From contig JAFEBS010000019.1 of NCBI GenBank assembly GCA_018242525.1, positions 248,001 through 312,000 on the forward strand: 64,000 nucleotides of DNA, read 5' to 3'. Of this stretch, positions 45,818-50,624 are shown one piece after another (position 1 is the first letter of the stretch; every line of letters starts with the position of its first letter). Source of the stretch: Planctomycetota bacterium (lineage in GTDB: Bacteria > Planctomycetota > Planctomycetia > Planctomycetales > Planctomycetaceae). Below the pieces are notes generated by a model, which had not been told where the DNA came from, did not search any database, and saw nothing but the letters and a program-made list of their open reading frames with translations. The translations under genes and the position numbers were made by a program.

Positions 45818-47641
45818 TCAGTCGACGTCATTCAGTTGAAGGCGTGCGATGTCGCTGGAGGACAACTCGTAGACGCGAATCGTGGTTCCGATGTCGCCAA
45901 CCGGTTTCATGCCCATGAGATACGCATAACGACCGTGATTTGCGAAGAGATGCGCTACACTGATAGCATACTTGCCGGGTCGGGTCTCGGCTTCGTCGAA
46001 CCGTCGATGGTATGATTTGGACGCCCGAGACGGTACCGGTACCGTCGACACGCCGAGCATATGCGGTGTTACGACTCCATAAGTCAGAAGATATACACGA
46101 TCGCCCGTCTTCTCTTTCGCTTCCCGATACCAATCTGCGGCCTTGTAGACGTCCTGTCCCCAATCGCAGCTACTGTGAAGCAAGAAGTATGGTCCGCCTC
46201 CCAGCCGTGAAGCCCATCCGTTGAAAAAGGCGATCTGATTCGGATACGCGGAGAGACTCTCCGTAATTCCGACTATCAACAACAGGGCAAACGCGGAGCG
46301 GCTCCGTCGACTCATCGTTCCCATCGACAAGACGCTGCCAGATAGCACGGCGAGAAACGGCCAGGCCGGCAATACGTAGCGGTAATGAATCGTGAAGCCG
46401 TATTGGATGCTGACCATCGCGAAGATCATGCCGGCACCAAGCAATACCAGCAACTCGGGCAGAGCGGCTTTTCCCCTCCACCATCGACGCGCGAGAGCGA
46501 CGATGCCGCCAATAGTTAATCCTTGAAAGCCGATCGGCGTTTTGACTGCCCATCCGACGAGGTAGTAGTACCACCATCCGCGTCGGCTCCACTGTCCGAG
46601 CAGATACGAATCAAAAGGTGGTGCCTCAAAGTCCTTTTGCTGGAGATCGAGCCCCTGCACAAAGTCGCGTGGTAGTGGTACGGGAAGTCCGGTGAGAGCG
46701 GTCTCGCGGAATCTGTTTCCCCTGGGCGCATGCTGGCCGGCAAGTGCGAAGCTGAAGAATTCGTAGTCCCCCAGTCGATTCCACGTGCCGGAGAACCCAT
46801 AGCCGCCGTTGAGCACGATCACCGCCATCGCCACGATTGCAGCAACGAGTCCACGGTGCAGCCACCGAAAGGCCTGGTGGGCTCTACAGGGTGTGAGAAG
46901 AAACGCCAAAAGCAACAATCCAATGACCGGTACGCAGGTGGTGCGGGTGAGAATCGTCAACCCGGACGCCAGGCCCAGTAGAATCGCCTGAAGGCAGCCC
47001 GCATGTTCCCGAAACTCCAGAAATGCCAGGAATGTGGCCGCCAGCAATGCCGCTCCGGGCATGTCGTGATTTGCCGTCGCCCCGTGCCCCAGAATCATCG
47101 GGCAGAAACACCACACAAGCAGGGACGCCAGCCCAGCGTTCCGATCATAGAGTCTGCACGCGATCAGCAGTATGCTGACAGCACCCAGCAACGAGAACAG
47201 GGCCGCGACCGATCGGCTGGCAAAAAACATGACCTGCAAGCGCGCTGCGTTACGCCGGAGAAAGTCATACCCGTACTCGTATTCGATTCTCAAATCGGCA
47301 CGATTGCGAAACGATTCCCAGTCTTCGTCGATCTCGAACCCGAGCAGAGGCAGCGCGCACAACGTTCGACTGAACGGAGGATTGACCTGAGCGATGTCGA
47401 AGCGTCCGTATCGCAGGTGAACGTAACCCGCCGGGATGACGTTCACTTCCAGATCATTGGGAGAATGAATCCAACTGCCATACAATAGCAGCCCAAGATG
47501 GAGCATCAGCACGACGAACACGATGCAGGCAAACCATTGACCCAACCACGGCTCATGGTGACCGTCGCGTGAATCTGGCAGGACCGTGGCCGCGCCCCGA
47601 ATCCCCTCAGCGCCCGAAACAGAGTCCGTAGACCTGTTCAT
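45818..47641 (-). CDS. Membrane glycosyltransferase of the GT39/ArnT/PMT type
   Basis: 607 residues. Cytoplasmic N-terminus, then many transmembrane helices from about 33. The first periplasmic loop carries NDLEVNVIPAGYVHLRYGRF-DIAQVNPPFSRTLCALPLL; the HLRYGRFD…NPP pattern and D/E pair are typical of ArnT/PMT-like lipid-phosphate-sugar transferases. The C-terminal segment is soluble (DWGQDVYKAADWYREAKEKT). It likely transfers a sugar from a polyprenyl-phosphate carrier on the outer face of the membrane; donor and acceptor are unknown. Its ATG overlaps the preceding gene's stop (47638-47641), so it is last in an operon. Confidence 0.85.
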   Translation of the reverse strand: MNRSTDSVSGAEGIRGAATVLPDSRDGHHEPWLGQWFACIVFVVLMLHLGLLLYGSWIHSPNDLEVNVIPAGYVHLRYGRFDIAQVNPPFSRTLCALPLLGFEIDEDWESFRNRADLRIEYEYGYDFLRRNAARLQVMFFASRSVAALFSLLGAVSILLIACRLYDRNAGLASLLVWCFCPMILGHGATANHDMPGAALLAATFLAFLEFREHAGCLQAILLGLASGLTILTRTTCVPVIGLLLLAFLLTPCRAHQAFRWLHRGLVAAIVAMAVIVLNGGYGFSGTWNRLGDYEFFSFALAGQHAPRGNRFRETALTGLPVPLPRDFVQGLDLQQKDFEAPPFDSYLLGQWSRRGWWYYYLVGWAVKTPIGFQGLTIGGIVALARRWWRGKAALPELLVLLGAGMIFAMVSIQYGFTIHYRYVLPAWPFLAVLSGSVLSMGTMSRRSRSAFALLLIVGITESLSAYPNQIAFFNGWASRLGGGPYFLLHSSCDWGQDVYKAADWYREAKEKTGDRVYLLTYGVVTPHMLGVSTVPVPSRASKSYHRRFDEAETRPGKYAISVAHLFANHGRYAYLMGMKPVGDIGTTIRVYELSSSDIARLQLNDVD

Positions 47642-48834
47642 GGCGACTTTTCAGGAGGCCGCCTCCTGCGGAAAAAGATCGCCACCACGACGGCCACCAC
47701 CGCCAGGTTCACCCCTGCCAGCCAATAGAGCGAACTCCTGCGCTGTACGCTTTGACCGGGGTTCCGGACGGCGGCCGATGCCGCGTCTTCCTTTGTGCGC
47801 TCCACCACCAAGCCCATCAATTGGTTGTAGATGCCTTCGATCTCGTCCACATGAATCGGGGCAAATTCAGCTTCATTGGATCGAAACAACGACTTTGAGG
47901 AGTTGGGGTTAATCCCGTCAGAGTATTGCGTGTGTTTCGGCAGATGAATCGTCAGATCTTCTGCCGTCGGCTTGTAGGAAAGATCCAGATCCGTAACTCG
48001 CATTTCTCGCACTTCGACAAGCGTCAGTCCCGTGGAGGTGCGCATCGGAAAGACTTTGATCGCGTGCTTCGGAAAGAAACGGCCCTGGTCCTCCTGAACG
48101 TCCAGGATCCGCATTCGATGGGAGAGTTTGCCCGTCCCTTTTTCCGTGTATTCTGTGATGAAGTTCAGATACCCGCGATCTGGATCGATCCAATAGGCAA
48201 CATCATGGGAATCGTACACCGCTTTTTTTGTCATCTTGATGTACTTTCGTCCTTCATACAGTACATCCGTTTCCACGTTGAAAGTGGCACCCGCAAAGTT
48301 CCGTGCGGCAGCATAGTCAATCGCGCTGGCCGGGGTGACACCGTCCGAGTCGGAAGCAAGGTTGAACGGTTGATATCGAATTGCCAATCGTGAGTTCGCC
48401 GGAGAATGCACGATTGCAGTGTTGACGATTGGGTCGTGATCGATGGCAAACGGCCCCTTCCGGGCAATTGTCAGGGGAACAATCAGGCCATCCGGCGATG
48501 CCATTTCTGTGGCGAGCTTGTGGCCATCGAGTTCAACCTTGATTGTGAGAGCGTCACCATCGAAGTACAACGTGCTCTCGCGTTCAAGGTGATTCATCAG
48601 ACCATTCCACTTTCCCTCGATCGCCGCGGATTCCGTGTCGGCGCTCTGGATGGAATAGACGAAACTGCATTTGCCGTGCGTGAACGAGGAACGATTCGCA
48701 AGATAACCTTGCCGAATCATCTCCAACTCTGGAGGAACATCCCCGCCGAATGCGGTTGCCATCAGCAGGACAGATAGGCTCGCGACGATCAGGCCCCCAC
48801 AATTTGCAAGCCGGGATGTCAGGAATCGGTACAT
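47638..48834 (-). CDS. Secreted, C-terminally membrane-anchored protein of unknown function
   Basis: 398 residues with a signal peptide (NCGGLIVASLSVLLMATAFG), a large β-rich domain (SFTHGKCSFVYSIQSADTES, LYFDGDALTIKVELDGHK, YWIDPDRGYLNFITEYTEKG, THLPK-type strands) and a C-terminal transmembrane helix then Arg-rich stop-transfer (LAGVNLAVVAVVVAIFFRRR). The β domain resembles outer-membrane lipoprotein-sorting (LolA/LolB-like) planctomycete proteins but I cannot confirm it. It overlaps the glycosyltransferase by 4 bases (ATGA). Confidence 0.75.
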   Translation of the reverse strand: MYRFLTSRLANCGGLIVASLSVLLMATAFGGDVPPELEMIRQGYLANRSSFTHGKCSFVYSIQSADTESAAIEGKWNGLMNHLERESTLYFDGDALTIKVELDGHKLATEMASPDGLIVPLTIARKGPFAIDHDPIVNTAIVHSPANSRLAIRYQPFNLASDSDGVTPASAIDYAAARNFAGATFNVETDVLYEGRKYIKMTKKAVYDSHDVAYWIDPDRGYLNFITEYTEKGTGKLSHRMRILDVQEDQGRFFPKHAIKVFPMRTSTGLTLVEVREMRVTDLDLSYKPTAEDLTIHLPKHTQYSDGINPNSSKSLFRSNEAEFAPIHVDEIEGIYNQLMGLVVERTKEDAASAAVRNPGQSVQRRSSLYWLAGVNLAVVAVVVAIFFRRRRPPEKSP

Positions 48835-48961
48835 GTTCGTCAGCTCCCAAGATCGCTCAATTGAAACGGGGGCGGTTCGTACTTCGACTCAGAGGGGCCG
48901 AAGCGCTGACCGGCGGTGGCTCGCAAAAGCGAATGATGATTAACGTGGAATCAATCGGCGC

Positions 48962-49406
48962 TTAAGGTTTGCATTTCCCTGCAGCTGTGGCAATTCCGTC
49001 CGGCTTCGGACAGCGGTCTGCACAACTACCATTATCAAACACGGCGTATTTGTAGTCGACGTGGCAGACCATTTCCTTCGGGCTCTGACATTGCCAGCAC
49101 TTGTCATCCGGATTAGTCGTTTGGGGAGCCTGGCAGTCACCGACCTGGATGGAGCGACGATCATATCCTGCGGTGGCGACATCGACTTCGATGCCACCGA
49201 CCATTCTCTTACAGAGTGAACTATCTGAAGTACACGCAGTATTGGTTGAGATGTTACAGTTGGTCAGGTTCGCGCACTTCTGCAGTGGCTGCTCGCCAGG
49301 ATTGGAAATATTGTCACCTGTCTGAATCGCCCAGTGCAATATGCCGCCCCACCATCAAGAATGACATTGCAACAGCCAGCATCGAAAACGCTCGAACTCG
49401 ATTCAT
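48962..49406 (-). CDS. Cysteine-rich secreted protein, frameshifted near its signal peptide
   Basis: ATG 49406 opens MNRVRAFSMLAVAMSFLMVG, a signal peptide, but the frame stops at 49314. The mature protein lies in another frame: (L)HWAIQTGDNISNPGEQPLQK and onward CANLTNCNISTNTACTSDSS … CWQCQSPKEMVC … NGSCADRCPKPDGIA…KCKP, with about 12 Cys. Removing one G from the GGGG run near 49350-49353 joins them as …FLMVGGILHWAIQTG. Conserved spacing and absence of other disruption suggest the gene is genuine and the extra G is a sequencing error, a recent mutation or a switching tract. Function unknown. Confidence 0.6.
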
Positions 49407-49450
49407 GACATGTTCCGTTCAAAAGAAACCCCGAAACGACAGCCATCCAA

Positions 49451-50624
49451 CTATCCGCCACGCGGCGGTGCGATGACCTTGAAACTTTCTGTTACCGACA
49501 CAGGCGGATCGGCGTCTGCCAGTGAGATCTGCAATTTCACCGTCCCAACAAAGATCGTCTGGGTGGGGAGGCCCGTGGGATCGAGAGTCACTTCATATTC
49601 CGGCATCGAATCACTTGCTCCCGTAACCGACTGGACCCCGAGGCAGGGTTGCGAGCATTCGACCGACAGGACACGGATTGCCCGCCCCTGCGGGTGGACC
49701 AATGCGAACTTCTGGCGTAGTGGATCTGTGGAGGTGACCTCGTCCCTTTTCAGTATCCACCGGGGTGGATCGACACTGATCGGACTCCCCACAGCCCAGG
49801 TCACGCGCGTCGAAAAGTGATACCCGGCCCCCTCGTCGGTCACCGGAGCAAACGCAATCTCCGCAGAAACCAGGCCTGGTGCGGTCCCTGCAGCCACGGC
49901 AATCTCCAGATCATATTCCCGTCGCTGCAGTCGCCCTTCCGCAAAGGGTTCCATCCCACGTTCCGTGAGGGTGCAGGCGATCTCGTCGGAGCCCGGAACA
50001 GCAAGCCATTTTAGCTTTGGGGGGGGGCTCAGCGTTGGAGTACACTGTCAAGCGGTGTTTGCCGGACACTCGTGCCCCCGGTGCCAACTGACCGAAGGAA
50101 ATCGGCAGGTCGCGACCGCTGTCAAGCATTACCGGTGAATACGTCCACGATTGTATTTGGTAGACATGTGACGCACCGTCGTCGGTCTTGATTGTCACCG
50201 TCGCCTGCTTGTGGATGAGGCTGTTCGGCTTGACCTCAAGCGTCACTTTCGCAGCTTCCCCCGGCTTGATCACCTCACGATCGATCTTCGCACTCAAGCA
50301 GTCGCAGGACTTGGACTTCTGCTTGACGATCAGGTCCTGTCGACCTTCATTCTGTAGCGAAAAAACGTGGGAGTAATTCAAATCCGGCGACAAACGGACA
50401 CGCGGAGCGAACCGGGCGACGAATTTAACACCCTCAGGAGAAGCCACAGTTTCGACGACCGGATCAACGGAAGAATACGGGCGGTCGCCGGTAAGTACTA
50501 TGGACACGAAGGTCGTCAGTGTTGCCAATGACAAGACAGTCGCAAGGTAGCACGTCAGAGTTCGAAGCCCTCGCCGTTCAGGAGCAGCTCTTTCGGCCAT
50601 CAGCACAGGCAATTCACTAGTCAT
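49451..50624 (-). CDS. DUF1573-like membrane-anchored protein, frameshifted at a G9 run
   Basis: The upstream part (49911-50624) reads MTSELPVLMAERAAPERRGL, then one transmembrane helix (TCYLATVLSLATLTTFVSIV) and a DUF1573 domain (HVFSLQNEGRQDLIVKQKSK-SCDCLSAKIDREVIKPGEAA). It shifts into nonsense after EPPPKA. The second half (49451 to about 50017) continues in another frame: PPKLKWLAVPGSDEIACT… then LDPTGLPTQTIFVGTVKLQI. Reducing the nine G at 50019-50027 to eight gives …EPPPKLKWLAVPG with no gap. DUF1573 domains are ASH-like β-sandwiches of exported proteins with an SC-C motif. It is first in the operon that continues to 45818. Confidence 0.7.

Follow-up and report, generated by a model that had tools for sequence, protein, structure and literature searches.

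Frame loss at a nine-cytosine run in a planctomycete DUF1573 gene and its possible origin in the decay of a spare operon copy

The window analysed here is a 64,000-nucleotide stretch of contig C10 in a draft assembly of a Planctomycetota bacterium (99 contigs, 8.45 Mb), and it contains a DUF1573 gene on the minus strand that loses its reading frame at a run of nine cytosines (C9, or G9 on the plus strand; positions 50019–50027). The best explanation, to which we assign a probability of about one half, is a recent loss-of-function frameshift in a redundant, decaying operon copy. Replication slippage at the C9 run probably caused the frameshift, and the window copy of this multi-copy planctomycetal operon would be the spare one, in which decay has begun. 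The product would be a truncated protein of 237 residues that keeps its membrane anchor and its DUF1573 Ig-like domain and has lost its C-terminal half; the second gene would be deprived of an in-frame signal peptide, with the third and fourth genes still intact.

The minus-strand open reading frame at 50624–49911 encodes 237 amino acids, with the frame lost at the C9 run and the last ~36 residues being nonsense (49911–50018, stop included). The N-terminal part (50025–50624, minus strand) contains a signal anchor helix at residues 20–44 and a DUF1573/Ig-like domain at residues 84–152 that matches Pfam PF07610 (E 2.9e-13; 50.1 bits against a gathering cutoff of 26.1), placing it within the DUF1573 family. 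A single-sequence AlphaFold model of the 237-residue product contains the helix at 20–44 and a beta domain with strands at 66–160, and as its confidence is low (mean pLDDT 44) only its helix and central strands are relied on. Past the tract, the +1 frame stays open for 189 codons (50020–49451), with coding-like codon use and no further lesion. No Pfam or NCBIfam model fits this C-terminal half, which is recognised through two intact homologues in a second, related genome (G035), one of 405 aa on contig 160 (E 6e-7) and one of 369 aa on contig 77, where its residues 29–147 align to residues 224–337 (weak alone, E 0.012). The N-terminal half aligns just upstream in the same G035 proteins, with residues 86–200 matching residues 83–196 of the 369-aa homologue (E 3e-7). 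The matches are colinear and their offset fits a single continuous protein, so the alignments show that both halves belong to one DUF1573 gene. Its frame is broken relative to the intact homologues, as in a pseudogene, and within the gene itself no additional stop or frame loss was found beyond the tract. The earlier note was correct in placing a G9 run (C9 on the coding strand) at the split of a DUF1573-like gene, in calculating that eight G would restore the frame into an intact C-terminal half, and in describing the product as an exported, membrane-anchored protein of an envelope-type operon.

The DUF1573 gene is followed by genes encoding a small Cys-rich exported protein, a 398-aa protein with a C-terminal transmembrane anchor, and a PMT-like glycosyltransferase. 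The last two are intact: the third gene (47638–48834, minus strand) encodes all 398 residues, including a signal peptide and the anchor, and has a homologue on contig 77 of G035 (E 5.8e-13, residues 37–391), and the fourth (45818–47641, minus strand) encodes a 607-aa protein that matches PF13231 (E 4.2e-10) and is 33% identical to its G035 homologue over residues 11–570. In the second gene, a signal peptide, MNRVRAFSMLAVAMSFLMVGRHIALGDSDR, starts at 49406 and is followed by a stop (49314–49406, minus strand), and it is out of frame with the Cys-rich mature part (48962–49354, minus strand), which lies in the +1 frame and is open only after 49354. The frame change is confined to 49317–49354, where the longest run is G4. 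Equal hydrophobicity together with a charged start was found in one of 1402 short ATG open reading frames in 273 kb of the genome, a set that includes the 49406 candidate, and this one is presumably that candidate. The Cys-rich gene thus appears to carry a second frame break that is not at a slippage-prone run; the assignment is based on signal-peptide logic and codon scores, with likeness to a homologous signal peptide being only suggestive. Because the signal peptide and the Cys-rich part differ in frame, and the DUF1573 gene is split at C9, two adjacent genes are broken, and the frame break next door is the kind of extra lesion expected where a pseudogene's neighbourhood is decaying.

Intact copies are present elsewhere. 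Contig 77 of G035 has the identical four-gene order with an intact DUF1573 gene (369 aa), and the window's own genome has two further operon copies with intact DUF1573 genes, on contigs C1 (373 aa) and C15 (375 aa). The operon copies would then be redundant. The earlier note had proposed comparing the tract among relatives, and the run is not shared: none of the four intact DUF1573 genes in G035 and the window's genome (L086, L087, L160 and L162) has a run of G or of C as long as six. These homologues are single open reading frames, and they provide no conserved shift site of the type used in programmed frameshifting. When 169 other genomes from the order are compared, just one (G035) has a relative of the C-terminal half (E≤0.001); the operon copy is therefore sporadic, and either accessory or fast-evolving. 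The closest relatives are ~25–35% identical and none is a close orthologue; contig scans for same-species genomes and of 169 further genomes of the order returned no close orthologue with the tract, and the genome-contig scans found no other genome of the same species.

The window operon (45818–50624) and the L086, L087, L160 and L162 copies represent a recurrent, highly diverged planctomycete cassette of DUF1573, Cys-rich, transmembrane-anchored and PMT-like genes, the order of which varies; no family model was found for its small Cys-rich and anchored proteins. In one G035 copy (L087 3253–4803), a DUF1573 domain and a peptidase C39 domain (PF03412, E 9e-12) form a fusion close to the Cys-rich gene, an arrangement which suggests that the small protein is processed or exported. 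A serine-recombinase-like gene adjoins the G035 operon at L086 5409–6929, and the cassette may be mobile.

A further locus in the window's genome, on contig C65, appears to be a relict of this kind of cassette. It is degraded (L088 9503–11569), with a PMT fragment covering only residues 250–411 of 607 and a Cys-rich frame that has no signal peptide. It contains a C9 run (C65:36573–36581) within a 387-aa open reading frame, and a C-terminal membrane anchor, SWMPIVLSVNGAVLALLIGIGLIRYRSQKRK, lies in another frame just past the run, with the frame offset in the opposite direction to that at the window tract. The third-gene proteins of the window and C65 have a common architecture (signal peptide and C-terminal anchor), and BLAST finds no similarity between them at E≤1e-3.

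Long G or C runs are not in excess in this genome, and a G9 lies within what chance would give. The 8.45 Mb contain 122 runs of at least 8 and 29 of at least 9 (totals derived from genome-wide match counts), compared with Markov expectations of 104–201 and ~20–50 (21–49), respectively, for orders 2 to 5, and of 404 and 110 for a first-order model. All 29 runs of at least 9 were checked for frame, as were 56 of the 93 of exactly 8. Nine of the coding runs of at least 9 keep their frame, seven as judged by script and two by eye, and the window tract and C65:36573–36581 do not. Splits whose downstream part is short can escape the script, as the C65 tract did; it was found by eye. Some 30 coding runs of 8 keep their frame and none was found off frame, with three that were flagged being cleared by eye. 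Those flagged automatically at G8 in L132 (PyrE) and L135 (a membrane-fusion protein) read through in frame, and L053 and L057 proved to be boundaries between genes. At L058 (G10, contig C43) a further large split gene was suspected, and the site turned out to be the end of a PQQ-repeat gene adjoining a pyruvate phosphate dikinase gene; a length change in this G10 (2500–2509) would alter the last residues of the PQQ-repeat protein. The genome's longest G run is a G14 directly after a T9 (L046 2493–2515; C19:44242–44264), apparently outside any convincing gene. Runs of 9–11 G/C lie shortly upstream of likely start codons in L044, L068 and L069, where length changes could affect expression.

Recent decay of the window copy is favoured because there are two clustered lesions, a redundant operon, a relict copy, and no enrichment of long runs. 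The clustering emerges from a codon-use frameshift scan that covered 416 kb and a further 199 kb (~0.6 Mb, with slight overlaps), in which candidates without a nearby start codon were inspected; it is sensitive to mid-gene breaks with at least 50–60 codons on each side and not to lesions near gene ends. No other mid-gene frameshift was found in the ~0.6 Mb, and the breaks are therefore concentrated in the window operon; apart from the window tract itself, the candidates inspected were natural gene boundaries or antisense shadows. There are points against decay. The C-terminal half has no further lesion and retains coding-like codon use, two of the four operon genes look fully functional, and local assembly errors would give an identical picture. 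As the C-terminal half is intact, the lesion is either young or an assembly error, and any decay of the DUF1573 gene would be very young.

The most serious competitor, with roughly half the standing of decay, is a sequencing or assembly error, such that the gene is in frame in the real genome and the run was miscounted in the 99-contig draft. Long G runs are a classic site of such errors, no decay is seen in the C-terminal half, and both operon breaks are of the same sign. A GeneTack study also expects unclustered, homology-validated frameshifts to be mostly sequencing errors (PMC3711429). Against this, ~0.6 Mb of the assembly has no other mid-gene frameshift, and the frame holds across nine other coding runs of at least nine and ~30 of 8. 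At the C65 tract the frame is shifted the other way from that at the window tract, so one systematic over- or under-call cannot explain both. Moreover, the second break does not fall on a long homopolymer, and the site is ~17 kb from the contig end. If decay is the correct explanation, the breaks would be real mutations that have become fixed.

The earlier note had favoured a phase-variation switch, in which rapid gain and loss of bases at the run by slipped-strand mispairing toggles between the full-length and the 237-aa truncated, membrane-anchored protein. The run is of suitable length and lies within a reading frame; in Campylobacter, seven or more G/C is the cutoff for phase variation and nine is the commonest tract length (PMC6321876). 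The product is membrane-anchored, and the sole other off-frame coding tract found is also a C9 in the same operon family (C65), where it would toggle a C-terminal anchor; C-terminal switching has been described in Helicobacter canadensis (PMC2823697). However, long runs are not enriched across the genome, the tract is absent from the four intact homologues, the break in the neighbouring gene involves no long homopolymer, and the C65 locus appears to be a relict. We thus find the switch unsupported and regard it as unlikely. A broader version, in which the operon family uses C9 tracts as contingency switches, acting on the DUF1573 C-terminal half in the window and on the C-terminal anchor of the third protein in C65, takes account of the fact that just two off-frame coding tracts were found genome-wide, both nine long and both in this family, and is more doubtful still.

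Least probable, and only a slim prospect, is that ribosomes slip on the proline run CCC CCC CCC AAA in a leaky +1 frameshift, by which some of them would give the full-length protein: the required direction is +1 and Pro-tRNA on CCC-N is a known +1-slip site in other bacteria, with CCC-AAG among those tested (PMC3617221; PMC4519876), so some full-length DUF1573 protein may be made in this way, but the slippage in PMC3617221 was observed in suppressor mutants and tRNA-modification mutants, RNA past the tract shows no unusual degree of structure (z = 0.02), and homologues do not conserve the site.

The window gene would then be an ordinary lesion and also a warning that a homopolymer beside a frame loss is insufficient to claim phase variation; it was the genome-wide scoring of long runs and the reading of the neighbouring gene that changed the verdict. 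We found no literature relevantly linking phase variation to a planctomycete, judging by titles and abstract openings, and none of the DUF1573 literature, judging by titles, concerns this operon. If tract-length variation were real, it would represent contingency switching on an uncharacterised multi-copy envelope operon in a phylum for which we found no report, and C9 contingency switching would be the first reported in the Planctomycetes, as far as the titles and abstract openings searched indicate.

The site resembles +1 frameshifting at CCC-N proline codons (PMC3617221, PMC4519876) in direction and codon context, and differs in that no stimulatory element was found and there is no conservation. 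With the poly-G/C phase-variable genes of Campylobacter and Helicobacter (PMC6321876, PMC2823697) it shares a run of nine in an envelope-protein reading frame, with the frame set by run length. Unlike those systems, the genome has no excess of runs, the tract is not conserved in homologues, the coding strand has poly-C rather than poly-G, and the adjacent gene is broken without a run. Compared with the DUF1573 (PF07610) HYDIN/ASH-like Ig-domain proteins, the N-terminal half is a clear member and the C-terminal half falls outside the family models. A homopolymer-indel frameshift pseudogene is also not a perfect match, as the window DUF1573 gene would be very young, with neither half further decayed, and is known here from assembled sequence, but it has the same single break at a run, a recognisable downstream half, intact homologues elsewhere, and a second lesion next door.
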